A stretch of DNA of 25,425 nucleotides from a virus (IMGVR_UViG_3300032323_000741:1-25425); one strand, 5' to 3'. Positions 1,774-18,187 are shown, numbered from the stretch's first letter. Translations and numbers: made by a program. Notes: generated by a model not told the origin, from the sequence alone.

Positions 1774-1781
1774 TATAAATA
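1774..1781 (+). promoter_or_regulatory. T4-type late promoter TATAAATA
   Basis: An exact match to the T4 late promoter -10 box, recognised in T4 by the gp55 sigma factor; marine T4-like phages are reported to use NATAAATA. It sits directly between two genes and 31 bases before ATG 1813. By T4 geometry transcription would begin near 1787, inside the left arm of the adjoining inverted repeat. Confidence 0.65.
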
Positions 1782-2097: not shown

Positions 2098-2098
2098 C

Positions 2099-2500: not shown

Positions 2501-2508
2501 ACTACCCT

Positions 2509-2516
2509 TATAAATA
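2509..2516 (+). promoter_or_regulatory. T4-type late promoter TATAAATA, close to a start codon
   Basis: An exact TATAAATA lies in the 24-bp gap between two genes, only eight bases from ATG 2525. With T4 spacing the transcript would begin about three bases before that ATG, giving a near-leaderless message. The box could equally serve the downstream genes at 2794 and 3038, which have strong SD sites. Confidence 0.6.
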
Positions 2517-2524
2517 TTTTCACT

Positions 2525-3036: not shown

Positions 3037-3037
3037 A

Positions 3038-3694
3038 ATGGCAAAGCCGTTAAAACACATTGGTCGTATGAAAAACACAGGAGTAAAACTTCTGGTTATA
3101 TTTAGAACACTACCGGGCGAATCAAACATGGCACTAACATTGCCTGTATCAAATTTGTCAGATGTATATCACGATAGTATTATGACTGTGGTAGAAACAG
3201 ATCAAGCACAAGAATCGTTTGAACTTGGTGAAATTTTGTTTACTCGAACTTTTCCAGATGGTCGTCCAATGCTACAAGCACTACAAGCAGACAACAGATT
3301 ACAGAAAGTTGCAACAGATTTAGTTGTAATGTCTCCAACTGCTAACGACTCTGTACAGTTAGATCAGTTAAATGTGTTGATTGCAGAACAACGTAATTGT
3401 TCAGTAGATGATTTATATACTTTTGTATCTGGGGCTCCAAAGAAATCCGATGCTACTGTTGAGGACATTGCCAAAGTTAAAGATCTTGCTCCTAGTGTAG
3501 ATCCAGATATTCCTGCGCCCGTAAGAGCACAAGCAGCTAATACCGAAGTTTTGTCTGACAAAGACATTGCTAAGAGTTATCGTAGTCAAGCAGATGCTCT
3601 TTATAAAGAAGCTGCAAAGCTACGTAAAGATGCAGATGAATTGGATCCGCCTCAGAAGAAAACTACAAAGGTAAAAGAAACTGCTGATGCCTAA
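3038..3694 (+). CDS. Conserved phage hypothetical protein with helical C-terminus, 218 aa
   Basis: Function unknown. The frame opens at 3011, but the strong SD at 3025-3030 places the start at ATG 3038. The N-terminal domain (about residues 1-130) is alpha/beta and opens MAKPLKHIGRMKNTGVKLLV, with a conserved-looking FTRTFPDGRPMLQAL stretch. A Pro/Ala-rich linker (about 140-170) leads to a charged helical segment (SYRSQADALYKEAAKLRKDADEL) that reads as a coiled coil, then a Lys-rich tail. The architecture, a globular domain joined by a flexible linker to a coiled coil, suits a subunit that bridges partners. It overlaps the next gene by eight bases. I cannot match it to a named T4 product. Confidence 0.74.
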   Translation: MAKPLKHIGRMKNTGVKLLVIFRTLPGESNMALTLPVSNLSDVYHDSIMTVVETDQAQESFELGEILFTRTFPDGRPMLQALQADNRLQKVATDLVVMSPTANDSVQLDQLNVLIAEQRNCSVDDLYTFVSGAPKKSDATVEDIAKVKDLAPSVDPDIPAPVRAQAANTEVLSDKDIAKSYRSQADALYKEAAKLRKDADELDPPQKKTTKVKETADA

Positions 3695-3992
3695 TCCTTT
3701 GTTTAGACCGCCACGACATCTTGTCAAAGAGTGGCCGGAAGTATTTGAGGATCTTTATATGAATACCATGCCTGTGGCTTATCTAGATACTATTCATCTA
3801 GAATTTGCCGATGGCAGGGTATGGCAGATAGATATTAAAGATCAGTTAAAAGAAGAAAAACCAGATGCCATTGCTGATCGATTACTCGAAACACTAGCAG
3901 AATACAAAGATGAAATTAAGAAAATAGATTTTAAAGTAGATATTGATAGACTTAAAAAAGATATAGGCGATTCAACTAAATCAATTCTCTAG
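3687..3992 (+). CDS. Conserved phage hypothetical protein, 101 aa
   Basis: Function unknown. A short basic N-terminus (PLFRPPRHLVKEW) is followed by a strand-rich part (YLDTIHLEFADGRVWQIDI) and a long charged C-terminal helix (residues 55-98, many Lys, Asp and Glu). It starts eight bases within the end of the preceding gene with only a weak upstream purine run, so translation may depend on coupling. It is the last + strand gene of this block. Its final 17 bases overlap the end of the convergent dehydrogenase gene, with no room for a terminator between them. Confidence 0.72.
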   Translation: MPNPLFRPPRHLVKEWPEVFEDLYMNTMPVAYLDTIHLEFADGRVWQIDIKDQLKEEKPDAIADRLLETLAEYKDEIKKIDFKVDIDRLKKDIGDSTKSIL

Positions 3993-5202
3993 TATTACCA
4001 TAATGTATTACAGTATGTTCATCTGATTTAAATGTTCTCCAAGGGTCAACAACAACTGACCCTTGTTCTATTTTACAGTATAGATTTTGTAGTTCATTAA
4101 ATCCACGATACTCGTATGTGACTTTTCTATTGTGTGCTAACAGTACGACCCCATAACACCCTTTAATGTCGTCACCAGTTAGTGGATCAATATAGGTTGG
4201 AGTATGCCCTAATTCTTTACAGTAATGTCCAATTAATAAACTATAACTACCGTCACAGTATTCAACTCCCGGTTTATAGGCTTTGCCGTGAATAAAGATA
4301 CTCATTCTATTTTTCTCAGCGTGTTTTACTAATTCTTTGGCTAGATTTTTAGCCTGTATTTCCCTAGCAGACATTATTGCATCAAACAGATCGTAGCCTA
4401 GATCTAATTCTTCTGCTAGATATCTTAGTGCAATATTATCTCGGGGATGACACGCACCTCCATCCCCCATACCGGCCTTCATATACTGCGGGCCCATAAT
4501 ACGCAAAGTTGACTTTTCTAAAGCATCAGTGACCACATCGACATTAATATTTCCCTGACGTACAGCTACATCCTGTATCATATTAACTAATCCGATCTTA
4601 GTTGAAATAAAAGTATTATAAAAAATCTTTATACACTCACACTCGTCCCAGGTTCCTACAACATATCTAGGATTATTTTCCATTACAGTTTTATAGAAAT
4701 CAATTAGTTGTCGAGCATCACCGGTTTCTTCCCCGTCTTTGGTGCCAATCATAATCATTTCAGGATTAACCATATCCCATGCTACTGACCCCATAGCAAT
4801 AAGATAGGGATTATAAACAAATCTAGTATTAGGTATTAACTCGATAAACTCCCGTCTAGTAGTTCCGGGCAGTACTGTGCTAATAAGAACTAACAATTGA
4901 TCTTTAGTCATATGCTTATTTGCTTCTATTAAACATTCCTTAACTATCGAGTAATCAAAGTCTTTAGGTTCTAAATGAGAAGTAGGCTGTCTGCCATCGT
5001 ATGCAGGATCGTGGGGGGTTGGCACAGCAATAAACACAATATTTCTATCTTGCACTGTTTCTTTAATAGTCGACTTTATGTCTATCAATATAGTTGGCTC
5101 AACTGTTTGAATATCGTAGCCCGCAACTGTGTGTCCCTTCTTTGCAATTTCTTCTGCGCAGGGCATACCTAACTTACCTAAACCAATAAAACCAATTTTC
5201 AT
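3976..5202 (-). CDS. UDP-glucose/GDP-mannose-type nucleotide-sugar 6-dehydrogenase, divergent
   Basis: The 408-aa protein belongs to the dehydrogenase family that oxidises a nucleotide sugar at C6 to a uronic acid, using two NAD+ via a Cys thioester. Visible are the Rossmann GFIGLGKLGMP at 4-14, VPTPHDP at 60-66, the conserved lysine helix (K202, N207), the catalytic-Cys motif GGACHPRDN at 248-256 (C251, D255), and a C-terminal sugar-binding domain opening near GKAYKPG. The loop that normally reads PEFLxEG is here PYLIAMG (132-138), so two usually conserved glutamates are absent. AAAGGA at 5209-5214 is the SD, and the start overlaps the upstream radical SAM gene by ATGA. The family is firm; substrate and even activity are open. 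A product such as UDP-glucuronate would feed the nearby epimerase. Confidence 0.85.
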   Translation of the reverse strand: MKIGFIGLGKLGMPCAEEIAKKGHTVAGYDIQTVEPTILIDIKSTIKETVQDRNIVFIAVPTPHDPAYDGRQPTSHLEPKDFDYSIVKECLIEANKHMTKDQLLVLISTVLPGTTRREFIELIPNTRFVYNPYLIAMGSVAWDMVNPEMIMIGTKDGEETGDARQLIDFYKTVMENNPRYVVGTWDECECIKIFYNTFISTKIGLVNMIQDVAVRQGNINVDVVTDALEKSTLRIMGPQYMKAGMGDGGACHPRDNIALRYLAEELDLGYDLFDAIMSAREIQAKNLAKELVKHAEKNRMSIFIHGKAYKPGVEYCDGSYSLLIGHYCKELGHTPTYIDPLTGDDIKGCYGVVLLAHNRKVTYEYRGFNELQNLYCKIEQGSVVVDPWRTFKSDEHTVIHYGNTRELI

Positions 5203-7121
5203 TTTTGTTCCTTTGTTACTAGAGATTTACCAAAGTTACGTTTTCTTCCAAAATAGATGTTTTCTAAAAATCTATCCAAACTGATATCTTTACTTTCGTG
5301 AAACTCAAACTTATATTTTACAGTATTCTCTAGTGGTGTGTTATCTAATATGTAACCTAAGAAGTCATAATCAAACTCAATTGTATAAGGAAATTGTTCT
5401 ATGTTATCATAATCAATTACATAGTTACGTTGAAACTGTAATAATTGTGTTAAACATTTTGCATCTAGAGAAAACTCACTGATTACAAACTTTTCTATTA
5501 GATCAAATACATAATTATATTTTCTATCTAGATGCATATTCAATGTAGTTCTATGTATAATATTCCATCCGTGGACTTCAATGTTAGATATATTAGGATG
5601 ATTAATTTTACCATCAATCATCCAATTACAATAATAGTGTCTAAGCTCGTCACGTTCTTTAATAAACCAAGGATCGTCTTGTAGGTAATTCCATAGTCTA
5701 TCATAAAATACAGAATAGTCTATATCTGCATTTTTATGTAAGAATCTGCTGATGTATGTAGTAAGTCCGTTAATATGAAATGTTTGCATAAACCAACTGA
5801 ATACCTGACTATCTAACATTTCTTCTGTTGGCATGTCCTTAGTTCCGGTAACTACATCAACACACTCTTGGAGTTCATTATAGTTATAGCTTCCGCTCAT
5901 ATAATCGTACACGGGTACACTGGTAATTTCATAAAGACGTTGTTGTAGCAAATTCATTTCAGCGTTTTCAAGCAGTTGTGCGTGTAATATATTAATACCG
6001 GTGTGATTACCTGCACGGTATATCTTATAGAATCCTTCCTTCCATGTGTCTTTTGTTTCGCCCGGAAGTCCTAGAATAATTTCTGTATAAACAGGAACAT
6101 TGTTTTTATCGCATAGTGCAAAAATGTTTTCAATTTTGTGTTGTGCTAAATTTTTACGTTTGATATTTTCTAGAACATCAAGATCCATACTTTGCACACT
6201 AACAGTCAATCCCTGATTAAACTTAGGATTCTTAATTAGTTTGAACACAATATCAAACACTTCAGGTTTTTGATCTTTGGCCCAACTCATACTGAAGCTG
6301 TTAGGAAATCCGTATTTTTCCTGCACTTCAATTAGCTTATCAGCGATAGCATTATCACGTTCTACAAACATACCAAAGTTAGCATCAGTAATAGTGACAA
6401 ATCCGCAACCTTTTTGTCCTATCCATTCTAACTCTGCAAATACCTTTTCTAAATTAAACTTTTTAACTTTGTTATAAGTTAGACTACCCCAATCACAAAA
6501 TGTGCAAGCATATGGACATCCTCGATTTGTTTCGACTGTTGCGTTCCACTCTACATCAGTAGTTTCTGTCATTATCTTATCAAACACACCTGTAAGATAT
6601 GGACTAGGCATATCTTCTAAACTGCTGATACGTTCTCCGTCACCTGTGTCTACTGCTAATCCGGCGTTATTAATTAACAATCCCTTAATATCAAGCCAAG
6701 AAGTGTTAGCCGATATTGCATCTAATAATTGCCGTAAAATAATTTCGCCCTCTGACTTAATTACTACATCAACAAATGGCAACTTTTCAAAAATATTTTT
6801 CTTTGTAATAGGCATTTCTGGACCGCCAAAGAATATCAAACAGTCTGGGTTTATTTCTTTAAGCCTACGTGCTAGTGCGTAGTTATAGTTTTTGTTCCAC
6901 ACATAGGTGCTGAAGCCAACTATATCACATTTAGACAACTTGGATACAGTTTCGTCAATGTTATCACGTCGCCAGATTAAATCTTCTAGTTGGTAATTAG
7001 ATTTAATTGATTCAAATTGATTAACATAGGCCCATAATACTCCTACGCTGTATGGAAGGTAGTGTGCATTAAATTCTTTTGGACCTTGTTGAAAATTTGG
7101 TTGAACAAGACTTATTTTCAT
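5199..7121 (-). CDS. Radical SAM protein with B12-binding-like N-terminal domain
   Basis: The N-terminal 140 residues resemble a cobalamin-binding Rossmann domain (LVQPNFQQGP, VGFSTYVWN, FFGGPEMP), but I see no DxHxxG motif, so base-off B12 binding is doubtful. The radical SAM core follows, with the Fe-S ligands in RGCPYACTFCDWG (C202, C206, C209), then VTITDANFG and EIILGLPGET segments typical of class B-like enzymes. The last 230 residues match nothing I know and may bind substrate. At 640 aa it is long for the family. The frame extends to an ATG at 7157, but that form would overlap the divergent gene, so I take ATG 7121; no clear SD supports either. It is coupled by ATGA to the dehydrogenase. 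Chemistry could be methylation or rearrangement of a sugar or other small molecule (inference). Confidence 0.83.
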   Translation of the reverse strand: MKISLVQPNFQQGPKEFNAHYLPYSVGVLWAYVNQFESIKSNYQLEDLIWRRDNIDETVSKLSKCDIVGFSTYVWNKNYNYALARRLKEINPDCLIFFGGPEMPITKKNIFEKLPFVDVVIKSEGEIILRQLLDAISANTSWLDIKGLLINNAGLAVDTGDGERISSLEDMPSPYLTGVFDKIMTETTDVEWNATVETNRGCPYACTFCDWGSLTYNKVKKFNLEKVFAELEWIGQKGCGFVTITDANFGMFVERDNAIADKLIEVQEKYGFPNSFSMSWAKDQKPEVFDIVFKLIKNPKFNQGLTVSVQSMDLDVLENIKRKNLAQHKIENIFALCDKNNVPVYTEIILGLPGETKDTWKEGFYKIYRAGNHTGINILHAQLLENAEMNLLQQRLYEITSVPVYDYMSGSYNYNELQECVDVVTGTKDMPTEEMLDSQVFSWFMQTFHINGLTTYISRFLHKNADIDYSVFYDRLWNYLQDDPWFIKERDELRHYYCNWMIDGKINHPNISNIEVHGWNIIHRTTLNMHLDRKYNYVFDLIEKFVISEFSLDAKCLTQLLQFQRNYVIDYDNIEQFPYTIEFDYDFLGYILDNTPLENTVKYKFEFHESKDISLDRFLENIYFGRKRNFGKSLVTKEQK

Positions 7122-7129
7122 TATGTGTG

Positions 7130-7147
7130 TATTTAACCGAATAAATA
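7130..7147. promoter_or_regulatory. Divergent late-promoter-like boxes in a 30-bp gap
   Basis: AATAAATA (7140-7147, + strand) fits the NATAAATA consensus. The opposite strand carries GTTAAATA (7137-7130), which shares the TAAATA core. The two boxes form a 6-bp inverted repeat (TATTTA/TAAATA) and point away from each other towards ATG 7152 (+) and ATG 7121 (-). Both leave only four to eight bases to the start codon, so transcripts would be leaderless or nearly so. The + box is the more convincing. Confidence 0.4.
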
Positions 7148-7151
7148 TGTT

Positions 7152-8339
7152 ATGCAAAAATTAAAAATTAAACTAGAAGACAATCCATTTTTTTCTAGTC
7201 CAGAGATGACCACCTTAACTAATGGTGTTGGTGCTGCATCTCGAGCACACTTTGGTGTTAACAAGTATCGACATCTATTTAATAACCATGCCGATGTTAG
7301 TTACATTAGTCTTTTATTAGGTTATGGTCAAAAAATAACTGCGACTACAGACTTGTTTAAATTTATAGATTTCGAATCAATTAATGAGTTAAGAAATGGA
7401 CGTACTGTTTTAATTTTTGATGCTACTCTCGAAGGATATAGTGAAACAGAATTACCTTTAAAAACTTGTCTATATTATAATGCAATCTTACACAATATTA
7501 ATCCTTCTAAGATTTTTTTGTTTACAGGAAATTTTTTAACTGCAGATGATAATATCAATGTAATTCCTATTTTTTTATTAGATACCGGCTGGCATAATAT
7601 TCCAACTCCAGCTACCATTAACGATGCTACAGCAGAATGTTTTAAAAATTTAGAAAAAATAATTTTAAGTTTGTCTCGAAGAAATAGATTTCCTCGAGTT
7701 GTAGCTCATTTTGCATTATGGAAGTCCCAATTAAATCAAGATTCTATTATTAGTCAAGACATAGTGTCTACCACCGCTACATTGTCTGCAGATGTTTTAA
7801 AAAAATTAGATCTAACTATAGAAGATTGGAACGAATTTAAAAGTGTATTACCATTACTAGCAGATGGCAATAACTTTCATATTAATGCACCGTTTGATCA
7901 TTTGCCCGATCTGCACTCTAAGACTGTGTTTAGTATTGTTAATGAAACACTAATTAGTGACTATAATAATACTTCTTTGTTCTTTTCGGAAAAACTATTA
8001 AAACCGATTATTAACTATCAACCAATGGTAATCTACGGACAACCGTGTATTAATCGTAAAATTCAAATGCTAGGGTTTAAAACTTACGATGACTATTTTG
8101 ATTTAAGTTTTGATGACGAACCCGACGACATTTTAAGATATAAAAAATTATTAGCGTCTGTTGAAAGTACCGTTAATCATCTAAAATCTTTATCACGGGA
8201 CGAGCAAATTGCTTGGCGTTTTAAAGAGTTAGAATTGTTAATCTACAATCGAGAAGTGTTTTTACGTAAAGAAAACAATATGAAACAATTAGAATTATTT
8301 TCAGAAAAACTTACATCAATTTTTCAGACCAAGTCTTAG
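7152..8339 (+). CDS. GT-B-like putative glycosyltransferase, 395 aa (paralogue of 10177-11535)
   Basis: The only + strand gene inside the sugar cassette. It aligns with the 452-aa protein encoded at 10177-11535: both have a LRNGR-x-x-L-I-D-x-x-x-E-G-Y segment (here 80-96) and a C-terminal block with an acidic residue (E265), SEK (279-281), a P-x-V/I-x-x-G turn, GFKTYDDYFD (308-317) and an acidic D-E-P-D-D run. A C-terminal SEK followed by a P-I-x-x-G turn recalls nucleotide-sugar-binding ends of GT-B transferases such as family 10 fucosyltransferases, but this is a resemblance only. No signal peptide or membrane segment is seen. There is no SD at ATG 7152. The 3' end overlaps the convergent epimerase gene by 29 bases. 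A glycosyltransferase is the best guess. Confidence 0.6.
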   Translation: MQKLKIKLEDNPFFSSPEMTTLTNGVGAASRAHFGVNKYRHLFNNHADVSYISLLLGYGQKITATTDLFKFIDFESINELRNGRTVLIFDATLEGYSETELPLKTCLYYNAILHNINPSKIFLFTGNFLTADDNINVIPIFLLDTGWHNIPTPATINDATAECFKNLEKIILSLSRRNRFPRVVAHFALWKSQLNQDSIISQDIVSTTATLSADVLKKLDLTIEDWNEFKSVLPLLADGNNFHINAPFDHLPDLHSKTVFSIVNETLISDYNNTSLFFSEKLLKPIINYQPMVIYGQPCINRKIQMLGFKTYDDYFDLSFDDEPDDILRYKKLLASVESTVNHLKSLSRDEQIAWRFKELELLIYNREVFLRKENNMKQLELFSEKLTSIFQTKS

Positions 8340-9312
8340 GAGTCTGTTCATTGATTATTTCTAAAGGATAAGAATAGTCGAAAGGTTTAGAGCCTTGTTC
8401 TTTGATATATTGTATAGTGCCTCTAACACCATCAATTAATTTTGTTGACGTAGTGTAGCCTAATTGAGTTCTAGCTTTGGTAGCATCACAGGTTGCATAT
8501 TTTACTTCATTGGGTCTGTCTGCTACATAGATTGACTCTTCGTTAAAATCTAATTCCTGAATAATTATGTTGGCAAGATCTTTAATTGTAATAAACTCTT
8601 CGTCTGGACCAATATTAAAAATATCATTTTTAATAGTTGGGTCAAAGGCTAATTTTTCTAAACAAAAAATACAGTCGTCTATAAAACTAAAACAACGCAT
8701 TTGACTGCCGTCTCCGTAGATAATTGGCGGTTTATTCTGTAGCACACGATTAATCATTATGCTCATTACATTACGGAAGGGATCGTCATAGCGTTGACGA
8801 GGTCCTACAATATTGTGAGGGACTGCTATAACCCATTCCATATTGTTTAATTCTGCTAGACATTTTAAAACATCTTCTCCAGCTACTTTGGCAATACCAT
8901 AAGGGTCAATAGGTCTTGGTTGTTGTGTTTCTTTAAACGGATATTCTTGATTACCATACCTTGCCATACTAGAACAGTAGACAAATCGCTTAACTTTATT
9001 TTGTATTGCAGCACTAATCGTTGACACACTAGCTTGGAAAATATTTCTTGTTATAAAACTAGGACTGAATATACTTAACCCTTCATGTGCTGTGGCTGCA
9101 CAATGATAGACTATATCGCTGCCTTGCATAGCTTTAGTCATTGTGTCGACATCACAACAATCAATTTGATAAAATTCTGCTTGTTTGGGAACATTGTCAA
9201 TATATCCGCCAATTAAAGTATCATTGCCTGCAACTGTATGACCTAATTCAATCATTCTGTCAGCTAGGTGACTGCCTAAAAATCCTGCAATACCTGTTAT
9301 AAAAATTTTCAT
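8311..9312 (-). CDS. NAD-dependent nucleotide-sugar epimerase/dehydratase (extended SDR)
   Basis: The 333-aa product is an extended short-chain dehydrogenase acting on an NDP-sugar. It shows the NAD-binding TGIAGFLGSH (6-15; G7, G10, G13), D31 at the end of the second strand, an HCAATAHEG loop, CSSMARYG (113-120) supplying the catalytic Ser, and YGIAK (138-142; Y138, K142). PHNIVGPRQRYDD and SFIDDC follow in the usual places. Length and order match UDP-glucose/UDP-glucuronate 4-epimerases and related dehydratases; the intact Ser-Tyr-Lys set implies an active enzyme. Substrate cannot be read, but the dehydrogenase at 3976 makes a UDP-uronic acid a reasonable candidate. It overlaps the SGNH gene by ATGA and has only a weak upstream GAAA, so coupling probably drives translation. 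Confidence 0.87.
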   Translation of the reverse strand: MKIFITGIAGFLGSHLADRMIELGHTVAGNDTLIGGYIDNVPKQAEFYQIDCCDVDTMTKAMQGSDIVYHCAATAHEGLSIFSPSFITRNIFQASVSTISAAIQNKVKRFVYCSSMARYGNQEYPFKETQQPRPIDPYGIAKVAGEDVLKCLAELNNMEWVIAVPHNIVGPRQRYDDPFRNVMSIMINRVLQNKPPIIYGDGSQMRCFSFIDDCIFCLEKLAFDPTIKNDIFNIGPDEEFITIKDLANIIIQELDFNEESIYVADRPNEVKYATCDATKARTQLGYTTSTKLIDGVRGTIQYIKEQGSKPFDYSYPLEIINEQTPKTWSEKLM

Positions 9313-10175
9313 ACTAGATTTCGTTTTTTAATTTCTTCATATAGATATTCTGATACCTTAAGTTGTCCTTCAATAGACCAGTGGGCACACGGAGTAACAT
9401 ATTTCGTAGGAACTGATAAAGTCCTTCCTAGTGCAAATAGATCATGCATGCTTTTATATTCGTTACCGTCTGCTTGATATATCATGGACATTAAAGACGA
9501 ATACGGCTCAGTAGATATAAAATCACTCCAATCTATTAAGTCTATGAGATAATCTTTATCTTCTAAATCTTTTTTTATGTTTTCTCTACTAATTCGTTCG
9601 TCAAATACAGTAGAAAATAAAAATTTATATCCACGACTTTGACAATAATTTTTAGCATCATTGATATTAAAAAGAAATTCTATGGCATCATTTCTAGGAG
9701 ACCATATTTCTTTAAAGTATTCTTTTTCAAATTTTGAAATAGCGCCACGATCACTGTTTGGATTAGGCCAAACAGTTTGCCACTTTTGATGCCAATTTAA
9801 TCCAGCTGTTTGGTCCGACTGTTTTATAAAATCATATCTTTCCATTCCGGTAGCTAACAATATTACAATCACATTGCCTAAATTGTCAGGCAATTTGTTT
9901 AAAAACATTTCTCTAATTGTTCCCCTATTGCCTCCACCGTTTACTCCAAGATTAAATGTTTTATAATTTAATCTGTTAGCTAATTGTCTTACCCAATTGT
10001 TTTGTGATTGTTCTTCTAAAAACTGTGTTCCTGAAATATTATAGGTAGCTGGGTCCTTAGGAATAGATTTCCAAGTTTCTAAAGAATATGCCCCTACGCC
10101 TTGAGTAAAACTATCGCCTAGTCCTATAATAACATTATCGCCTTCTTTTATATCATCGCAATGTGTTGGAAGCAT
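9309..10175 (-). CDS. SGNH/GDSL-family hydrolase, 288 aa
   Basis: SGNH proteins hydrolyse or transfer acyl groups, commonly acetyl groups on carbohydrates. Block I is GLGDSFTQG (18-26, nucleophile S22), block II is FNLGVNGGGNRG (74-85), block III may be LLATGMERYD (107-116), and block V holds H265 in PCAHWSIEG. The Asp normally three residues before that His is Pro here (P262), so a Ser-His dyad, or another acid, would be needed. The frame extends to an ATG at 10211, but AAGGA at 10181-10185, five bases before ATG 10175, decides the start. No signal peptide is visible, so it should act in the cytoplasm. It begins one base after the preceding gene's stop. A role removing or adding acyl groups on the cassette's sugar is inferred. 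Confidence 0.82.
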   Translation of the reverse strand: MLPTHCDDIKEGDNVIIGLGDSFTQGVGAYSLETWKSIPKDPATYNISGTQFLEEQSQNNWVRQLANRLNYKTFNLGVNGGGNRGTIREMFLNKLPDNLGNVIVILLATGMERYDFIKQSDQTAGLNWHQKWQTVWPNPNSDRGAISKFEKEYFKEIWSPRNDAIEFLFNINDAKNYCQSRGYKFLFSTVFDERISRENIKKDLEDKDYLIDLIDWSDFISTEPYSSLMSMIYQADGNEYKSMHDLFALGRTLSVPTKYVTPCAHWSIEGQLKVSEYLYEEIKKRNLV

Positions 10176-10176
10176 T

Positions 10177-11535
10177 TTATTCCTTAAAATAATCAAAATA
10201 ATATTTAACAAGAGAGGTGTGCTCTTGAAATTGTTGGGTATGAATTGATAAAAACAATTTATGATTATGCTCTAATATATTTTGCATTGATTCATACCAC
10301 GCTGCTTTATCTTTGATGTTTTTAATTTTTTCTAGAGAATTAACTATTCCTAAGAATCTCTCACGATCGTCTAGATCATCATACGATTCGTCTATAAATC
10401 CTTCAAAGGTTTTATATCCTAACTTTCTTAAATATTTTAAAGTGTGTTTGCTACCCACAATAATAAAAGGCTGCATACAGGCAATAGGTTTAAATGTTTT
10501 TTCACTAATGAAAACACTATGTTCATAATCGAAGTAACTAGATTCTGTAATTACAGACACCCAGCTGTTTAAATAAACTTCGTCTAATATACGTTCAACA
10601 AACTCGTAATATCTAGTAGAATCCGTAGGAGTTACTTGATTTATATTTCTAGGAGTAATTGTAGTATTTAGATCTATAGGTAAATGATATTCTGATAACT
10701 GTTCTTTAGTTAATTTAGTTTCCCACTCTGGATGTGTTCCTATACTAATGTTTCCGTACGGTACTAACCCTGCATTTTCAAGATGTAGATAATTAAAAAT
10801 TCTTTGAGGTCTTGGTCTAAAATTAGTACAATCGTATAGATAAACTTTAGAAGAATTTTCTTTCTTATAATTTAATACTTTATCAAATGTAATATTAAGT
10901 CCACGATTAACATAAGTTTGATTTATGTAAAAAGATAAAGTTGTAGACGGAAGTATGTTTAGTTTATCAACGACATTGTTATCTATAGTCCATCGATCAT
11001 AATTATCTGACGATGATTGATCACCAGTGACATACATAATTGCCTGTGGTTGTATATTGTATTCTGAACATTTTTTATGAAACCACTGCCATAACCAATC
11101 GGTATGATATCCTTCAACACTTTGATCGATTAATAGCATTGCCCTTCCATTTCGTAAATCGTTTAAGTATATAGAATTAATGCATTCAAATATTGATTGT
11201 TTTTCTGCCGGCTTACCGTTAACTAAATCTGTCCAATCGTTTGGATGATACGCTACTGCTATTGGAATAATATACTTACTGTCGTTTAAACTGTTAATAG
11301 ATTCAATGTTTATTGTGTATTTAGAATTTGGTTCAATACGAGCATGATAATAAAAAATGATATCCACTAATTGTGAAAATCTAAAACGAGAATCTTTTAA
11401 GAAATTACCTATAAGCGATCTATCTGATTTGAAAATATCTCTAAACGGGGGATTTGTAACATCCTCTCCAATATATTTAGATTTCAATGTTTCAAATCTA
11501 AATGTAATTTTATTCGATATATTGTTTACAGTCAT
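10177..11535 (-). CDS. GT-B-like putative glycosyltransferase, 452 aa (paralogue of 7152-8339)
   Basis: A soluble protein with a strand/helix pattern suggesting two Rossmann-like halves. The central DLRNGRAMLLIDQSVEGY (126-143) and the C-terminal block (E331, SEK 344-346, QPFIIVG 355-361, GYKTF 373-377, DESYDDLDDRERF 382-394) match the + strand gene at 7152 point for point. Residues 236-257 (CTNFRPRPQRIFNYLHLENAGL) resemble the N-x-x-x-R-x-x-R acceptor-side segment seen in several viral and bacterial glycosyltransferases. No catalytic residue can be named with confidence. It overlaps the end of the radical SAM gene by 26 bases, with AGAAG about 8 bases before the ATG as a weak SD. It lies between a radical SAM enzyme and an SGNH hydrolase, which supports a role in sugar transfer. 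Confidence 0.62.
   Translation of the reverse strand: MTVNNISNKITFRFETLKSKYIGEDVTNPPFRDIFKSDRSLIGNFLKDSRFRFSQLVDIIFYYHARIEPNSKYTINIESINSLNDSKYIIPIAVAYHPNDWTDLVNGKPAEKQSIFECINSIYLNDLRNGRAMLLIDQSVEGYHTDWLWQWFHKKCSEYNIQPQAIMYVTGDQSSSDNYDRWTIDNNVVDKLNILPSTTLSFYINQTYVNRGLNITFDKVLNYKKENSSKVYLYDCTNFRPRPQRIFNYLHLENAGLVPYGNISIGTHPEWETKLTKEQLSEYHLPIDLNTTITPRNINQVTPTDSTRYYEFVERILDEVYLNSWVSVITESSYFDYEHSVFISEKTFKPIACMQPFIIVGSKHTLKYLRKLGYKTFEGFIDESYDDLDDRERFLGIVNSLEKIKNIKDKAAWYESMQNILEHNHKLFLSIHTQQFQEHTSLVKYYFDYFKE
10181..10185 (-). promoter_or_regulatory. Shine-Dalgarno AAGGA deciding the 10175 start
   Basis: AAGGA lies five bases before the ATG at 10175 on the - strand, within the last codons of the upstream gene. 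It favours this start over the ATG at 10211. Confidence 0.65.
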
Positions 11536-12883
11536 TATAAAATTCTTCTAACTTTGGAAAGGTTTTTGCAAAATCAGTACCTCTTCTACAATCATATTCA
11601 GCAAACCAATTAAAGAAGTCTCGTTTGCCTTCTTTTAGCTTTTCTGGGGTATAGATACTAGATTCCATGTATTTTACAACTCTTAAGAATTTTTCGTACT
11701 CTAACTCACTGAATTTACTACGGTTTTTATCGTCTAAATTGGCTAGAATGAAGTCTAGGTGACTAGTCATATACGGCATAAATTCTTCTTTAGGCAACAA
11801 ATTCATATCATACTGTAACGGCTCTTTTAAATAAGGCGTATCAAATCGTATACGTTGCCACTTGTTTTGCTCTGTGCCGTTATACTTAATTCGCCATTCT
11901 AAAATCTTTTCTAATAAACTTTGAAAATTAGTTACTGCAAGTATATTAAAAGTTATCATAAAAGTAATAGGCAAAGATGTTTTAGTTAGATATGTATCTA
12001 AGTTTCTTTCCCACACTGCGAGATCTAAACCTGTGCGAATATATTCTGCAGGAGCACCCCATGTGTCGATGCTGGTAAAAATCTTAAAGTCTTTGATTTT
12101 ACCGTTGTTTATTAGATTGTTAACTTTTTCAACTAATCGATCTATAAGTACAGGTTTAACACCAAAGTTACTGTTAATGTTTAATTCTAAATTAGGTAAC
12201 GGATTCTTTTCTAAATCCTCTAATAATCGCCAGGTGCTTTGTTGTAGTAAAGGTTCGCCTCCAGTAATACGTAAGATAGTTAATGTCTTACGAACTTCGG
12301 GCCACCAACGCCACCAAGCTTCTACATAAGGATTAGTTTCTTCTTCGTAGATTTGAAACCAATCAATATCATTTCTATGATTTTTAACCATAGTGTACGG
12401 ACCGTGATCTTTGATTTCTTTGTAATAGCTACTTGAGTGTTTAGGGTGACAATATCCGCATTTAAAATTACACTCGTTACCGAACGAAATTTCTATATAC
12501 TGCGGATTAATGTTTTGATCCCAATCGCCTTCTTTGATCTTTTGAAAACGTTCTGGAGTATAGATAGTTGAATTGCGTTCTTTGCGATCGCTAATATAAT
12601 CTTCACCCAATGCTTCAATGTTCCAACAATAATTACATCCGCTAGGTTTACCGCCATTCAGCATTTCTAAACGTTCGTGTTTCTTTTGATTGGTATTATG
12701 TAAAGCACTAGCATCAACAACAAGTTCGTCTAAGGGAATCTTGTGAGGAGCGGGATGATAGCAACTGTGTGTTTCGCCTGTTTGCAAATAAATGGTTGTG
12801 TGATGCCACTTGGCCATACAAAATGTAGGCGAGATCTCGTTCATTATAGGAATAAACTTTTTTATTCTTGCCTTATCGTCCAC
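11510..12883 (-). CDS. N-twitch-type radical SAM protein, 457 aa
   Basis: A radical SAM enzyme with the [4Fe-4S] motif NECNFKCGYC (C138, C142, C145) and ITGGEPLL (206-213), the usual SAM-contacting loop. Before the core, C22, C41, C83 and C86 sit in a pattern (FCMAKW, SCYHP, SGCNYCW) like the auxiliary cluster of radical SAM proteins with an N-terminal twitch domain, so a second Fe-S cluster is likely. The start is GTG at 12883: AAGGAA at 12891-12896 is seven bases upstream, and the ATG at 12844 has no SD. It overlaps the preceding gene by 11 bases and the following gene by 26. Substrate unknown; its place among sugar genes suggests modification of a sugar or of a peptide near it. Confidence 0.85.
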   Translation of the reverse strand: MDDKARIKKFIPIMNEISPTFCMAKWHHTTIYLQTGETHSCYHPAPHKIPLDELVVDASALHNTNQKKHERLEMLNGGKPSGCNYCWNIEALGEDYISDRKERNSTIYTPERFQKIKEGDWDQNINPQYIEISFGNECNFKCGYCHPKHSSSYYKEIKDHGPYTMVKNHRNDIDWFQIYEEETNPYVEAWWRWWPEVRKTLTILRITGGEPLLQQSTWRLLEDLEKNPLPNLELNINSNFGVKPVLIDRLVEKVNNLINNGKIKDFKIFTSIDTWGAPAEYIRTGLDLAVWERNLDTYLTKTSLPITFMITFNILAVTNFQSLLEKILEWRIKYNGTEQNKWQRIRFDTPYLKEPLQYDMNLLPKEEFMPYMTSHLDFILANLDDKNRSKFSELEYEKFLRVVKYMESSIYTPEKLKEGKRDFFNWFAEYDCRRGTDFAKTFPKLEEFYNDCKQYIE

Positions 12884-13571
12884 TTAACCGTTCCTTAACT
12901 CTATTAAATTCAGATTCTAACCAATCAAAATCATTAATTAATTTTAACCCTTCGGAATTATCGCTATTGCTTTCACCATAATATTTTCCATTCTGAGCTC
13001 CGAGATATGAATGAAATCCGTAGGGTACAGATTCATTTAGTTTACACCATGCATCTAATCTCTGCTGAGTTTCTGTATCGTCTTGTCTGTCAATTGTTCT
13101 GCTTGCTAATTTACAACATTCTCTAAAAGCACTTTTCCAGGTATTAAATGGGTCTGTATTAAATTTTGTTACATTACTAACTTCGTCTATGGCTTTAAAC
13201 AAAGAACTAATACTTGTGGTCATATCTGGTTTTGTGAGATCCATATTAACTGTTAGTGTCTTAGGTAACAATTTTACTCCGCCGTATCCATATTGTAATC
13301 CGTTGACAGGATTAATACTTCGCCACACGTGAACACACTCTTGACTCCAAGCATCTGCTACATAGTCAAAATTAAATGTATCTACTATTTCAGCATCGCC
13401 GTCGACTACCCAAAACATTTTAGTAAAAGACTTCTTAGCAGCCGCAACGTGTGCTTGATGTATTCCTTTAACTCCGTGTACACGCTGCGCTCGAGGAAAC
13501 CTTGTTTTTAATTTGGCAAAGTTTTCGTCTGCATTAGGTTCTTGATAGCTAATAAATATTATATCGTACAT
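12873..13571 (-). CDS. GT-A-like putative glycosyltransferase, 232 aa (tandem paralogue of 13559-14449)
   Basis: The N-terminus DIIFISYQEPNADENF (3-18) leads to RVHGVKG (30-36), then WVVDGDAEIVD (54-64) with a DxD (D57, D59), the signature of metal-dependent GT-A transferases. An INPVNGLQYGYGGVKLLPK stretch (86-104) follows, as in the acceptor region of related proteins. The next gene upstream shares all of these in the same order, so the two arose by duplication. It is shorter than its neighbour by about 64 residues, mainly in the C-terminal half. It starts 13 bases inside that gene with no clear SD, so coupling is likely. No signal peptide or membrane segment is seen. Donor and acceptor are unknown. 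Confidence 0.7.
   Translation of the reverse strand: MYDIIFISYQEPNADENFAKLKTRFPRAQRVHGVKGIHQAHVAAAKKSFTKMFWVVDGDAEIVDTFNFDYVADAWSQECVHVWRSINPVNGLQYGYGGVKLLPKTLTVNMDLTKPDMTTSISSLFKAIDEVSNVTKFNTDPFNTWKSAFRECCKLASRTIDRQDDTETQQRLDAWCKLNESVPYGFHSYLGAQNGKYYGESNSDNSEGLKLINDFDWLESEFNRVKERLSGR
12891..12896 (-). promoter_or_regulatory. Shine-Dalgarno AAGGAA supporting a GTG start at 12883
   Basis: AAGGAA lies seven bases before the GTG at 12883-12881 on the - strand. It is the main reason to accept a non-ATG start for the radical SAM gene. Confidence 0.55.
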
Positions 13572-14449
13572 TGTTGATAGTAAGTTGCGTTTAGTCTAAT
13601 GGTCTCATCATAAAGATCTACTGTATACTTGCTTTGCTGAGGTGTTAGAAAAGGCCAGTCTAATCCTAGATTATATTTTATTTTATCTCCTAGGTCTTTT
13701 ATATCTGCTTCTAAACTACCGTGAAGGACATTTTCTTTGTATATGTTTTTAAGAATTTCAAAATCACGCACATCAACATAATTCCAATCAGTGCAGTTGG
13801 TCATCCAAGTGCCTAATCTAGCACCGTATACTGCATATAATCCGTTTTCTTCGTGGGCGCCAACGGTTGACCACATACGCAGTCTATGAATGTTATGCCA
13901 CCAAATACGTTCTTTAATTTCTTGAGGTGGTACACGTATTCCATCCAGCAGAGTCATTTTAACACCTTCGCGGAATCCTGCTCTCCAGGCTTGAAACGGG
14001 CTGCCAGTAATAATGCTTTCACTATAAACTCGAGGAAAGTTACGATACCCATCTTCCCAACAAAAATCTACCTGCCCTCGTTCACTGTCTGAATTTTCGT
14101 GTGTTCGCATATTAAGAACAAAATCTCGTTTCCAAATCTTTAATCCGCCATTGCCGTAACGTAGTCCGTTAATACTATTACGGCCACACCACCCATAGAC
14201 CTGAATCTTAGGATCTGCCATATCAAGATCTAAATCAAAAAATTTAGGATCCACAATATTGTCTGCATCAACTGTAATAAACCATTCTGTTTCTGCTAGT
14301 TCAGCAGCAGCTTTATGTGCATGATCTGAACCTTTTACCCCGTGTACACGTTTAGCCCAAGGAGCTTTGTTACAGAGATCGGCATAGTGCAAATCTGCGT
14401 TAGGTTCGTCGTAACTTAAAAAAACAATATCAAATTCAATAACTTTCAT
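13559..14449 (-). CDS. GT-A-like putative glycosyltransferase, 296 aa (tandem paralogue of 12873-13571)
   Basis: Same layout as its downstream partner: DIVFLSYDEPNADLHY (7-22), RVHGVKGSDHAHKAAAE (34-50), ITVDADNIVD (58-67) with D61 and D63 as the DxD, then SINGLRYGNGGLKIW (92-106). Both continue with a P-F-x-x-W-x-x-x-F-R-E segment and an H/Y-x-x-x-G-A motif nearer the C-terminus. A longer C-terminal tail (from about residue 230) is unique to this copy. It overlaps the 205-aa gene by ATGA and has no SD of its own. The DxD and the position in a sugar operon support a glycosyltransferase, possibly of the GT2-like superfamily; the family number cannot be read. Confidence 0.72.
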   Translation of the reverse strand: MKVIEFDIVFLSYDEPNADLHYADLCNKAPWAKRVHGVKGSDHAHKAAAELAETEWFITVDADNIVDPKFFDLDLDMADPKIQVYGWCGRNSINGLRYGNGGLKIWKRDFVLNMRTHENSDSERGQVDFCWEDGYRNFPRVYSESIITGSPFQAWRAGFREGVKMTLLDGIRVPPQEIKERIWWHNIHRLRMWSTVGAHEENGLYAVYGARLGTWMTNCTDWNYVDVRDFEILKNIYKENVLHGSLEADIKDLGDKIKYNLGLDWPFLTPQQSKYTVDLYDETIRLNATYYQQCTI

Positions 14450-15063
14450 TTGTATGCTATCACATAATTTTTAAATAATCGTCTAGTGTAAACACTAAAT
14501 CGAGTGCTATCAATATTTTTAAACGTCTTTGATTTGCTAATTAGATCTTTTATTTTAACAGAAATTATCTCAAAAAGCACGTTGGGATCATTATAATCAG
14601 TAATAAAAAAATCCATTTCGGTATCGCCATCCCATACAATTCGACGTTCTTTAACAGGAACTATAGGAACTTTGGTTCCTCCAAATTCTGTTGACAGTTC
14701 AATTTTTAAACTTTTATTTTTTGAATTGTAGGTTAGATAGATATCTGCATTTGTGTCATCTGCATATTCGATTGATATAATTCTATGTAGTACATTGTCT
14801 ATTTTAAAAACAGATCTAATTTCTGCTACTTCGAGAGTGTTCGAATTAATATTAATAACACAAGAATCTATTTTAATCTCTGCTGAAATAATAGATTCAG
14901 CTGTCTCTTTATCAATAGGAACTTTGTGCTTTTCGTTGATAAATGCATGTGCTGGTCCAACGCTTAGAACTGCACCTGTCTGAGAATCAAATACCGCAAC
15001 ATACTCTACCGGATTTGGTTTACAATCAAGATACCATTGATCAAAATCTAAGATTTTTTCCAT
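14446..15063 (-). CDS. Hypothetical protein of unknown function, 205 aa, within the glycosyltransferase operon
   Basis: I do not recognise it. The sequence is strand-rich with alternating hydrophobic and polar residues (EYVAVFDSQTGAVLSVGPAHAF near the N-terminus, then RIISIEYADDTNADIYLTYN, then RRIVWDGDTEMDFFITDYND), which suggests a beta-sandwich. There are two cysteines, no signal peptide and no membrane segment. GAGGAA at 15069-15074, five bases before the ATG, is a strong SD. It overlaps the preceding gene by 16 bases and the next by ATGA, so it is made together with the DxD proteins on either side. It could be a carbohydrate-binding or partner subunit, but that rests on context alone. 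Confidence 0.72.
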   Translation of the reverse strand: MEKILDFDQWYLDCKPNPVEYVAVFDSQTGAVLSVGPAHAFINEKHKVPIDKETAESIISAEIKIDSCVININSNTLEVAEIRSVFKIDNVLHRIISIEYADDTNADIYLTYNSKNKSLKIELSTEFGGTKVPIVPVKERRIVWDGDTEMDFFITDYNDPNVLFEIISVKIKDLISKSKTFKNIDSTRFSVYTRRLFKNYVIAYK

Positions 15064-15890
15064 ACTATTTCCTCTAGTATATTAATTACCTCGGCATTGA
15101 TTTTATCTTTTTCAACATAGTGAACAATATCTAGTTGTTGATAATTACCTAATTTTAATTCGCCTTGTTTATTAATATAAAATCCAATATGATCCGACCA
15201 TGCATCTGCAGGCCATGGCCAATTTTGTATCATTGGTTTCATATGCACTACTCGTGGAAACTCTAAAGGGTAGGCAATTTGATCTTGAATATCTAAAATT
15301 TTTGCTGCCAATGCAAATGCTTCGTCGGTACCTAAAATTTTAGGTTTGTGTTCTGTTAAAAACGAATTAGTAAACTCTACAGGATTTTTTATAATTTGAC
15401 GACCAAGCTCAAAAAAATCTGTAGCCATAGAGCTATCTTTTTTAAAGAAGGTATAAAAACTATAAAGATTAGGTAAATTATTTTTTATGAATGCTTTTCG
15501 ATAATAAGGATCATAAACTAGCTCACCTCGATACGTATAACTTTTATTTGCTACATATAAGTTGCAGTTCTCTAAAAAATAATCAATCCAATGACTGTAA
15601 TCTCTCATAAACAGCATGTCTACATCAAGACAAACTGTGGCGTCAAAAGGACTTAATTGATCCATCCAAGATCTACCGTCCCAAAAAGTTTCCTGTCTCC
15701 ATTCTATAATGTGATCAAAGACCCAAGAACTTTTTAATTGATTAATCTTTTCCTTGTTATCGATAACCAAGGCTACTTGATCATATCCTGGCTTTTGAGT
15801 ATTTTTAATACTAATAGCTAATGCATAGGCTAAGTTTAGGTAATCGACCGTATCGTGTTCCGAAACTATTAATAGATATCCAAAGCTCAT
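15048..15890 (-). CDS. GT-A-like (GT8-type) putative glycosyltransferase, 280 aa
   Basis: An alpha/beta protein opening GYLLIVSEHDTVDYLNLAYA, with a DxD in SPFDATVCLDVDMLFMRDY (80-98; D89, D91). The Asp-x-Asp after a hydrophobic strand and followed by L-F and a small polar loop is typical of GT8-like transferases that bind a metal and a UDP-sugar. A C-terminal LDIVHYVEK may hold the His that such enzymes use. The upstream gene shows the same S/T-P-x-D-x-T-x-x-I/L-D-x-D signature, so these form a tandem pair. It overlaps its neighbours by ATGA (upstream) and 16 bases (downstream). GGAA about six bases before the ATG is a modest SD. Confidence 0.68.
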   Translation of the reverse strand: MSFGYLLIVSEHDTVDYLNLAYALAISIKNTQKPGYDQVALVIDNKEKINQLKSSWVFDHIIEWRQETFWDGRSWMDQLSPFDATVCLDVDMLFMRDYSHWIDYFLENCNLYVANKSYTYRGELVYDPYYRKAFIKNNLPNLYSFYTFFKKDSSMATDFFELGRQIIKNPVEFTNSFLTEHKPKILGTDEAFALAAKILDIQDQIAYPLEFPRVVHMKPMIQNWPWPADAWSDHIGFYINKQGELKLGNYQQLDIVHYVEKDKINAEVINILEEIVWKKS

Positions 15891-16744
15891 ATTAATTCCA
15901 ATAATGCTTCTTTGTTTCTGATTATACTCTGTTTGTTCATAACATGTATATCTATACCGTCAACAGCGGCTGCGCAGAAGTTTGAATCTAATTTAGGACT
16001 AACTAATAATGTTAATTTTTTGTCGACTGAATATAGTACATCTTTATCAAGTAGTGTTAGTACCGGTGGTAAATCCTCATTATCATTTTGTTCAAAACCA
16101 TTTAAGATATGTTTTGCAATACTAAACGCAATATCATTTCTAAATTGTTTGCTATCAAATCGATAAGTGTCGGCATAGTATTGATAGTAATCTTTGATAT
16201 GTTTTACTAACTCAAAAAATATTTTTGTTTTTGTATTTTTAGTAAACATAACAGTAGTAGCCCAATATAATTTTATTCCTACATCAGAAATATATCGGTC
16301 ATGATACCCTGTTCTATTATTATCATATATGTCTTTGATTGATTCTCCGATCATTAGATCACTATCAACATTCCAGTATTCAGATAATCTATTTGAAAAA
16401 ATTAAAAAATCGCTGTCAATTAGCAGAGTTCTATCATACGGAGTTAACTCCCAGGCCGATGATCTGTTAGAATTAATAAAAGGTACTACGACATTATCGG
16501 TGCCGTCATACAATCGTCGACTATTATTTGTTTGAGGTTTATCGATTACAATAATGTATTCAAATATTTCATTGGCTGTGTTATATATTTTAGACTCTTT
16601 CATCCAATCTACAGTAAACTTATCTGTAACCAACGATACCGATTTATTAAGATATTTTTTAGCCAACCCTCCAGAAATTACAGACATCAGTGCATAATCA
16701 ACTGATCGACTGTTATGAGCGTAAATTAATATACCTTGGGTCAT
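15887..16744 (-). CDS. GT-A-like putative glycosyltransferase, 285 aa (paralogue of 15048-15890)
   Basis: The motif ELTPYDRTLLIDSDFLIFSNRL (99-120) carries D110 and D112 as the DxD and lines up with the same block of the next gene. The N-terminus ILIYAHNSRSVDYALMSVI is a first strand and helix as in GT8-type folds. Outside these parts the two have diverged: this copy has a longer loop around residues 70-98 (NNSRRLYDGTDNVVVPFINSN) and a His near the end (DIHVMNK). No signal peptide or membrane helix is seen. It starts within an ATGA overlap with the 116-aa gene and has no clear SD. Donor and acceptor unknown. Confidence 0.66.
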   Translation of the reverse strand: MTQGILIYAHNSRSVDYALMSVISGGLAKKYLNKSVSLVTDKFTVDWMKESKIYNTANEIFEYIIVIDKPQTNNSRRLYDGTDNVVVPFINSNRSSAWELTPYDRTLLIDSDFLIFSNRLSEYWNVDSDLMIGESIKDIYDNNRTGYHDRYISDVGIKLYWATTVMFTKNTKTKIFFELVKHIKDYYQYYADTYRFDSKQFRNDIAFSIAKHILNGFEQNDNEDLPPVLTLLDKDVLYSVDKKLTLLVSPKLDSNFCAAAVDGIDIHVMNKQSIIRNKEALLELI

Positions 16745-17091
16745 TGTTCTAGTAATTTTTCAACCGATCTACTTTTTTTCAATTTTTGATATGATTCAAA
16801 ATACTCATAAGTTGCTTCGAAATATCTAGAAAAAATTTCATCTCTAAACATTTCTAAATCATCTACGAGGATTGGGTTTTCATTTGAATCCAAAATTACC
16901 GCTCCAGCGGTACGACCTTTTGTACATAGAATTTCTACAAAGGTTAGTAATGTTCTGTCAATATGAAATAATCCACCATTATAACCGTAGGTTAGTTTAG
17001 ATGAAATTTTTTCTTTAAGTGTTCGACGTTGAATTGAAAATGTCTGCTGATAGTTGGCAAACTCTAGAGCTTTTTTTAATTGCCCGTGCAT
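16741..17091 (-). CDS. Conserved phage hypothetical protein, 116 aa, first gene of the sugar operon
   Basis: Function unknown. Mostly helical at both ends (MHGQLKKALEFANYQQTFSIQRRTLKEK and YFEATYEYFESYQKLKKSRS) with a central strand region holding LTYGYNGGLFHIDRTLLTFVEIL and GAVILDSNENPILVDD. It reads as a soluble cytoplasmic protein. AAGGAG at 17097-17102, five bases before ATG 17091, is the strongest SD in the cassette, so this first gene should be well translated. It is joined to the first DxD protein by ATGA. A late-promoter-like GCTAAATA lies 27 bases upstream. Similar proteins seem familiar from marine T4-like phages but I cannot attach a function. Confidence 0.74.
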   Translation of the reverse strand: MHGQLKKALEFANYQQTFSIQRRTLKEKISSKLTYGYNGGLFHIDRTLLTFVEILCTKGRTAGAVILDSNENPILVDDLEMFRDEIFSRYFEATYEYFESYQKLKKSRSVEKLLEQ

Positions 17092-17155: not shown

Positions 17156-18187
17156 TTAACCTATTGATCCGATTGTAACTGTGGGTTGTGTTACAGTAAA
17201 ATTGCCAAGACTGCCAGGAACTAAGACTCCGGTAGCATACAGTAATGAAACTGCTATGGAAAAAGTTCCGTCAACTTTGTCGTCTGGAAGATAATCTGCA
17301 GTAGTTGCAGTTTGAACTCCGCCACCTGCAGTGCCAACGCCAACTGGTGTTCCTTGAGGGAAAGCTGTTGCTCCAGGAACGATTCCTGGATCGACATAGT
17401 TGTCAGTAAATAATACTCTGAATTCGCTGGCTGCAGCAGCACCAGTAGAATTATTTGCAGTATCAGTGACTCTAGCTTGTAAATTATAAGAGTTTCCACC
17501 ATACGGACTTGATCCAGCTAATGTATAGTATGTTTGAAATGAATTAGTCAATCTATACCAATTTTGTCCATCGCTGGGTGATGTTCCGGTGCCGGGATTA
17601 TTTCCACCAAAACTTTGTGTACCAGCACTGCTTAAAATACTAGTCCATTGGGTATTTTGCGTTGTGCTGCTACCTCCCGATCTTGAACTAGTAATCCGAA
17701 TTTGACCACCACTATTCCAAAAAAATCGAGCAGCATTAGCACTAGGCCATTGCAGATTTATAGTACAGGATATGCTAGCATTCCAAAAATCGCTACCGAC
17801 TCCTGTCCAAGTTCTAGATGCGGGACTACCTGTAGGTACAGACACTGCTGACTGTCCGGCACCTACGTTAAATCTATTTGTTATAAGTGTATTGGCTAGT
17901 GCATCATAGGTAGTTATTGGAGCATCTACAGCACTAAATCTTACAGTATTACCTTCCGCTACTGTAACCGTGGTAGGATTAGAGCCTGTTTGGTGTACCC
18001 AAGCATTAATAATATCAAATCGTAAATTAGCATATTCGTTGATAGTAACTCGGGTGCCTAAAGCTACTGCAGAACTGTTAAGAGATTGTCCGTAACCAGA
18101 ATTCCCCGAACCTGTACCGAGTACACCAATTACTTTATTTCTAATGTTATTGTATTCAGCTTGTGTGATTATGTCGTTTACAGGCAT
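17156..18187 (-). CDS. Putative tail adhesin/structural protein, 343 aa (paralogue of 18223-19116)
   Basis: A Ser/Thr/Gly/Asn-rich strand-forming protein of the type found on phage tails. It shares its plan with the next gene: a helical start (QAEYNNIRNKVIGVLG, then YANLRFDIINAWVHQTG), an NRFNVGAGQS motif, ARFFWNSGGQIR (153-164), NSFQTYYTLAGSSPYGGNSYNLQAR, and an acidic VDGTFSIAVSLL near the end. This copy has two extra Gly/Ser-rich insertions, around 194-206 (GNNPGTGTSPSDG) and 269-300. There is no signal peptide, as expected for a virion protein. The SD is weak (AAAGA about 7 bases before ATG). It is the last structural gene before the sugar cassette and may be a fibre tip or decoration protein. 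Confidence 0.68.
   Translation of the reverse strand: MPVNDIITQAEYNNIRNKVIGVLGTGSGNSGYGQSLNSSAVALGTRVTINEYANLRFDIINAWVHQTGSNPTTVTVAEGNTVRFSAVDAPITTYDALANTLITNRFNVGAGQSAVSVPTGSPASRTWTGVGSDFWNASISCTINLQWPSANAARFFWNSGGQIRITSSRSGGSSTTQNTQWTSILSSAGTQSFGGNNPGTGTSPSDGQNWYRLTNSFQTYYTLAGSSPYGGNSYNLQARVTDTANNSTGAAAASEFRVLFTDNYVDPGIVPGATAFPQGTPVGVGTAGGGVQTATTADYLPDDKVDGTFSIAVSLLYATGVLVPGSLGNFTVTQPTVTIGSIG

Follow-up and report, generated by a model that had tools for sequence, protein, structure and literature searches.

What is a dense set of sugar-linked genes doing beside the tail fibre genes of a phage, and whose surface would it decorate? The question is raised by IMGVR_UViG_3300032323_000741, a 25.4 kb record of an uncultured virus (GC 36%) that we analysed over its full 25,425 nucleotides (the window). 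Between the fibre genes and a replication-side gene row lie 13 tightly packed open reading frames (ORFs; positions 3976–17091). Twelve are on the minus strand, as are the fibres, and most of them share a few bases with a neighbour; GTB1 (7152–8339, plus) is the sole cassette gene on the opposite strand, an orientation that is kept in many relatives. The original prediction saw here one compact block acting in virion or host-surface glycosylation. The 13-gene cassette beside the fibres is as described, but it is not one block: it consists of a fixed core and a hypervariable swap segment, the latter holding the sugar-making genes. We read the locus as a virion-decoration system in which a fixed writer would be served by an exchangeable sugar supply, a proposal to which we give about even chances.

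The core was defined by mapping every window protein onto a comparison set of ~150 related uncultured viral contigs. Starting from the fibre side, with all genes on the minus strand, the order is: the fibre genes (fibre 599, fibre-assembly 141, fibre 761 and fibre 601; 19118–25423), a conserved flank whose three fibre-like proteins and fibre-assembly protein were recognised by PHROG tail-fibre matches; two virion-type proteins, adh297 (18223–19116) and adh343 (17156–18187), which are paralogues with 38% identity; unk116 (16741–17091), with an invariant LKKSRSVEKLL-type tail in its alignment; DxD4 (15887–16744); DxD3 (15048–15890); unk205 (14446–15063), for which a family alignment could be made and no PDB match was found; DxD2 (13559–14449); DxD1 (12873–13571); and TwirSAM (11510–12883), a radical S-adenosylmethionine (SAM) enzyme with an N-terminal Twitch domain. 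On the mapped contigs TwirSAM is followed by a variable stretch and then by the row from g9 to an exonuclease on the opposite strand. This order was seen again in dozens of contigs at protein identities of 50–90%, so the grouping of the genes is not due to chance. Whether the sugar genes keep company with fibre genes had been set beforehand as a check, and across related contigs the sugar set does stay with the fibre and adhesin genes.

A scan of IMG/VR with TwirSAM gave 473 relatives, 80 of which were kept (82–92% identical). In a 19-locus panel, mean pairwise identity was 84% for TwirSAM, 81% for DxD2, 72% for DxD3, 66% for unk116, 64% for DxD4, 63% for DxD1, 58% for adh297, 57% for unk205 and 52% for adh343. 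With TwirSAM and DxD2 at 84 and 81% against 52–58% for the adh proteins, selection has evidently constrained the writer more strongly than its virion-protein neighbours. The linkage extends to more distant loci. With a 58%-identical TwirSAM as the query, the radical SAM gene was preceded, at a distance of at most two genes, by a member of the DxD1/DxD2 family in 64 of 77 loci, several of which have an adh343-like ORF of 850–1060 codons directly upstream. In loci found via DxD2 the core is unchanged as far as DxD2, but the place of TwirSAM is often taken by a paralogue of 35–49% identity. The identities of DxD1 and TwirSAM to the window did not co-vary (rho −0.02), and a wider scan with the DxD1 relative of contig L163 retrieved only itself.

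The swap segment is bounded by TwirSAM on one side and on the other by the exonuclease and eight small ORFs (2–3992, plus), which keep the same order and are convergent with the cassette in all loci that reach this flank. The gap from TwirSAM to g9 varies from 2.1 to 8.3 kb. In the window it holds six genes: the UDP-sugar 6-dehydrogenase UGD (3976–5202, minus), a B12-dependent radical SAM enzyme (B12rSAM; 5199–7157, minus), GTB1, a nucleoside diphosphate (NDP)-sugar epimerase/dehydratase (8311–9312, minus), an SGNH-like hydrolase (9309–10211, minus) and GTB2 (10177–11535, minus). When counted from DxD2, 43 complete segments showed 19 gene architectures. Their proteins formed 54 clusters, with representatives that include radical SAM (10), SPASM (4), epimerase/dehydratase (4), 2-oxoglutarate (2OG)-Fe(II) oxygenase (2) and B12-binding (2) proteins, as well as UGD, a DegT-type aminotransferase, methyltransferases and an AMP-binding enzyme; after the radical SAMs, nucleotide-sugar genes are the commonest content. 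Related segments also hold a sugar C-methyltransferase, a carbamoyltransferase and a cytidylyltransferase-cupin protein. B12rSAM is 83–86% identical in L157 and L158, where TwirSAM is just 58% identical, and in L163 and L165, where TwirSAM is absent from the sampled stretch. Such high identity despite a divergent or absent TwirSAM shows that the segment has been exchanged horizontally between clades.

Several further features of these segments and their surroundings were recorded. UGD and g9 have convergent ends that overlap by 17 bp (3976–3992), and just inside UGD the plus strand has a 9-bp hairpin and then T's (4040–4065), which may end a plus-strand transcript; the T4 late-promoter motif was not enriched. 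In six loci the swap segment encodes an 821-residue protein that joins two radical SAM stretches and two SPASM stretches in a single polypeptide (L054:11349–13811). In one segment, an adenylate-forming AMP-binding enzyme (L121:13304–14743) might supply activated acyl groups with which to acylate the sugar. Sulfotransferase and carbamoyltransferase genes lie near related sugar cassettes (L163:16848–17462 and L165:2216–3694). L163 also encodes a TctA subunit of a tripartite tricarboxylate transporter (18407–20920; Pfam 3.1e-78) with an adjoining TctC-looking ORF; this contig could be chimeric.

What could the segment of the window make? UGD is an NDP-sugar 6-dehydrogenase by its Pfam matches (8.7e-18 and 1.4e-16, above cut-offs), its PHROG match (4.3e-99) and its catalytic cysteine motif GGACHPRD (GGxCxPRD); it scores below the cut-off of TIGR03026 (151 versus 189.8), and related proteins are encoded by cyanophage Bellamy and pelagiphage HTVC008M. 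The epimerase belongs to the short-chain dehydrogenase/reductase superfamily, with TGxxGxxG and YxxxK motifs, a Pfam match at 7.9e-44 and matches to UDP-glucose 4-epimerase structures (E 4e-42). The SGNH protein has a GDS motif and a weak match to Lipase_GDSL_2 (3.1e-4, 21.7 bits versus a cut-off of 32.9). GTB1 and GTB2 are a real paralogous family (26% identity, E 6e-16), GTB2 carrying an SEKTFKPI motif, and are best described as putatively transferase-like. A profile of the family gave nothing meaningful against PDB sequences, a null weakened by the inclusion of one radical SAM protein in the alignment. Thus, of the enzymes first listed for the cassette, UGD, the epimerase, two radical SAMs and four DxD proteins stand, the SGNH assignment is weak and the GT-B fold proposed for GTB1 and GTB2 found no support in Pfam or PDB.

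Could these enzymes instead glycosylate or otherwise hypermodify the bases of the phage genome as a protection from restriction? Phage glycosyltransferases that glycosylate DNA are known (background cited in PMC12619734), and some segments encode 2OG oxygenases. However, the cassette runs with fibre genes rather than with replication genes, and DNA modification leaves the B12 C-methyltransferase, the SGNH protein and the adhesin linkage unexplained. We consider it very improbable.

The attachment step would fall to the four DxD proteins of the core. Their DxD motifs are invariant in family alignments (D110/D112 of DxD4 in 49 sequences, D89/D91 of DxD3 in 63, D61/D63 of DxD2), and none has a significant Pfam match. 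For DxD1, we used an AlphaFold model of a one-module orthologue of 350 residues, built from 62 sequences (predicted local distance difference test (pLDDT) 91.8; predicted template modelling score 0.84). Its catalytic part matched GT-A enzymes in Foldseek (E 1.3e-5, prob 1.00). In VIA, GT-A enzymes scored Z 10–12, among them B4GALNT1 (Z 12.2, 2.6 Å over 141 residues) and the peptide S-glycosyltransferases SunS and ThuS (Z 10–11, 137–138 residues, ~10% identity); the matches also include a capsid-glycosylating enzyme of PBCV-1 and, in a search of viral models, the glycosyltransferase of phage Che8 (E 1.2e-5). On the basis of predicted fold and DxD motif, we assign DxD1 as a GT-A glycosyltransferase; the model establishes the fold rather than the reaction, because some nucleotidyltransferases (IspD) score alike. 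DxD2 is a GT-A homologue through DxD1 (32% identity, E 3e-30); its own AlphaFold model (19 near-identical sequences; pLDDT 54) was too poor to search with. Profiles of DxD1, DxD2 and unk205 found nothing meaningful among PDB sequences. DxD3 and DxD4 are putative GT8-like glycosyltransferases, their joint profile matching glycogenin at E 0.012 at best and no Pfam family.

The window copy of DxD1 has no extra modules, yet orthologues carry from zero to seven tandem N-terminal copies, each of ~105 residues, of their own GT-A nucleotide-binding half (e.g. L115:4949–7864), and ORF lengths in the family rise in ~105-residue steps up to 972 residues. When only the N-terminal modules were used to build a profile, it matched the DxD half of window DxD1 (8e-11). 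Both DxD aspartates are kept in none of 143 N-terminal modules, most of which have a tryptophan at the first position, whereas the motif is intact in 94 of 96 catalytic copies. Modules are more numerous in loci with a divergent TwirSAM (mean of 3.6 per DxD1 versus 0.8; Mann–Whitney p 3e-9, kinship ignored). SunS, ThuS and other GT-A enzymes share the catalytic fold of DxD1 at ~10% identity; the DxD1 relatives differ in carrying arrays of pseudo-glycosyltransferase modules.

The two radical SAM enzymes are of different kinds. TwirSAM belongs to NF033640 (1.5e-93, 314 bits versus a cut-off of 170) and, in 78 sequences, its CX3CX2C motif (Cys 138/142/145) and four N-terminal cysteines (22/41/83/86) are invariant. 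B12rSAM has B12-binding and radical SAM domains with a CX3CX2C motif, and resembles TokK (1.6e-78) and CysS (1.8e-49) over ~450 residues. It also resembles KedN5 but scores below the threshold of that family (NF033712; 8.6e-77, 258.8 bits versus a cut-off of 700); its B12 domain, cysteine motif and TokK match nevertheless mark it as a predicted C-methyltransferase that functions in the manner of these enzymes. It differs from them in its location in a phage beside sugar genes. Together with the predicted GT-A fold of DxD1, the epimerase matches and the sugar C-methyltransferase of a related segment, B12rSAM supports the earlier suggestion of rare-sugar chemistry combined with transferases. A comparison with anti-phage defence systems returned generic radical SAM similarity only. 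An IscU/NifU-type iron-sulphur scaffold is encoded in two related phage records (G009, the L155 record, 62638–63009; L163:16167–16565) and possibly serves radical SAM enzymes.

In another explanation, the core carries out a modification of a virion protein like that of ribosomally synthesised and post-translationally modified peptides (RiPPs): Twitch radical SAM enzymes, B12 radical SAM, 2OG oxygenase and methyltransferase would hypermodify adhesin side chains, with a sugar as one modification among several. In many loci of other clades, DxD1–TwirSAM is followed by additional paralogues of the Twitch radical SAM, between one and four in number; SPASM, 2OG-Fe(II) oxygenase, B12 radical SAM and methyltransferase proteins are present in the segment; the fold of DxD1 matches those of SunS and ThuS; and the IscU of the nearest relative could supply clusters. 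Against this, B12rSAM is closer to TokK, CysS and KedN5 than to RiPP enzymes, and the rank of nucleotide-sugar genes in the segments, second only to radical SAMs, points to sugars. On balance we think a RiPP-like role quite unlikely.

Is the target the virion or the host? The cassette could remodel host surface polysaccharide (the O-chain), mainly blocking co-infecting phages, and the adjacency to fibres would then reflect shared selection on host recognition. The glycosyltransferases of a pelagimyophage cluster have been read in this way (PMC7029224), UGD and epimerases feed O-chain sugars, and the swapping segment resembles O-antigen islands. A glycan that a phage builds on the host surface by itself needs parts such as an initiating transferase, flippase or polymerase; glycosylating soluble virion proteins does not. 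No initiating polyprenol-phosphate sugar transferase, flippase, Wzy/WaaL-type protein or membrane anchor was found in the cassette, and none in partial records of 13 relatives, with control genomes scoring positive; 663 downstream ORFs included about one clear membrane protein. The membrane initiating transferase, flippase or polymerase/ligase that would define a system of O-antigen assembly or modification was thus missing from the records searched. Moreover, however the loci of the window's group are laid out, it is always the best-conserved genes that lie next to virion proteins. We consider remodelling of the host surface rather less likely; because the lipid-linked glycan machinery was not found, we lean towards modification of virion proteins in the cytoplasm. 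Of these, adh343 is a likely target, together with its paralogue adh297. The latter shares 27% identity (pairwise E 5e-12) with PA5oct EST35_0123, a protein whose annotation notes its detection by electrospray ionisation tandem mass spectrometry and whose gene lies two genes from that of a gp10-like baseplate protein.

The carriers are an uncultured, T4-capsid, jumbo-related group of aquatic (lake) phages. The 139 kb related contig L071 encodes a major capsid protein of the T4 type (Gp23, 2e-99); in cultured phages, the nearest counterparts of this protein belong to jumbo phages, namely Sinorhizobium phage Phosso (71%), the PA5oct group (66%) and the GAP32 group (66%). The 163 kb contig L155, to which the flank of the window is most closely related, encodes 19 tRNAs and a tmRNA-like element. 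The whole window had no DNA match in a set of 50,697 cultured-phage records, and TwirSAM, DxD2, unk116 and long DxD1 likewise found no match there. Bacterial genomes, searched with narrow patterns, gave one weak match to DxD2 (27% over 68 residues).

Related islands have been described. Pelagimyophages, T4-like aquatic myophages, combine tail fibres with GT8-type glycosyltransferases, UDP-glucose 6-dehydrogenase and radical SAM cassettes in a hypervariable host recognition cluster, which has been interpreted as modifying the O-chain (Zaragoza-Solas 2020, PMC7029224); gene content there is like that of the window. In contrast, the window's group has a fixed GT-A/radical SAM core apart from a bounded swap segment and a capsid nearest those of jumbo phages, and according to that paper freshwater pelagimyophage members are without the lipopolysaccharide and radical SAM genes. 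A T4-like SAR86 virus carries 12 radical SAM genes and iron-sulphur assembly genes, many radical SAMs and a phage IscU being shared with our group; the accessible part of that report does not describe the fibre/adhesin linkage or GT-A core (Nishimura 2017, PMC5332604). In moraphages, four groups of glycosyltransferases belong to the core (PMC12619734). In mycobacteriophages such as Che8, the capsid and tail tube are glycosylated (Freeman 2023, as cited in PMC11256854 and PMC12619734); like the window, these phages encode GT-A enzymes, one of them the DxD1 structural match. Unlike the Che8 system, the window places next to its fibres radical SAM enzymes and an extensive set of sugar genes that can be swapped. 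There are therefore published precedents both for glycosyltransferase islands next to fibre genes and for T4-like viruses rich in radical SAMs, and a large glycosyltransferase and radical SAM set beside fibres is less unusual than first claimed. The fixed core, bounded swap segment and pseudo-glycosyltransferase arrays look new; we did not find them in the limited open-access literature that we read.

How might virion decoration work? An activated sugar, uronic or epimerised, would be made by UGD and the epimerase in the cytoplasm of the host at a late stage of infection, and B12rSAM (by C-methylation) and other segment enzymes could alter it. The core GT-A enzymes would then attach the sugar to the baseplate-proximal adh297 and adh343 or to the fibres, while TwirSAM may change the acceptor peptide or the attached sugar. 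The N-terminal modules of the relatives, lacking DxD, could be binding arms for the acceptor chain. A swap of segment would give a different glycan, and so a variable coat for receptor tuning or masking, with the writer unchanged. Several observations weigh against virion decoration. In L208 and L209, TwirSAM (56%) adjoins the exonuclease/g2/g4 row with no recognised GT-A gene. The contigs are partial and come from overlapping assemblies, many possibly re-assemblies of the same populations, so the counts of loci and segments are not independent. At 27%, the link of the adh proteins to a proven virion protein is distant; peripheral glycosyltransferases could use host lipid-linked intermediates without phage membrane proteins; B12rSAM is nearest to antibiotic-pathway rather than sugar enzymes; and nothing in Pfam or PDB points to GTB1 and GTB2 as glycosyltransferases. 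In its most specific form, virion decoration becomes a coat-switching locus: a GT-A writer (in many relatives fused to up to seven dead GT-A modules) and the Twitch radical SAM would glycosylate baseplate-proximal virion proteins, with segment exchange changing the glycan and producing serotype-like virion variation. All of this holding at once we judge unlikely.

If virion decoration is correct, it poses two questions of enzymology: the role of a Twitch radical SAM beside a glycosyltransferase, and the ligand of tandem dead GT-A domains. It would also mean that a widespread group of aquatic phages has its own exchangeable surface-sugar pathway, that the chemistry of the virion surface, beyond fibre sequence alone, sets host range and recognition, and that phage populations would be under serotype-like selection.

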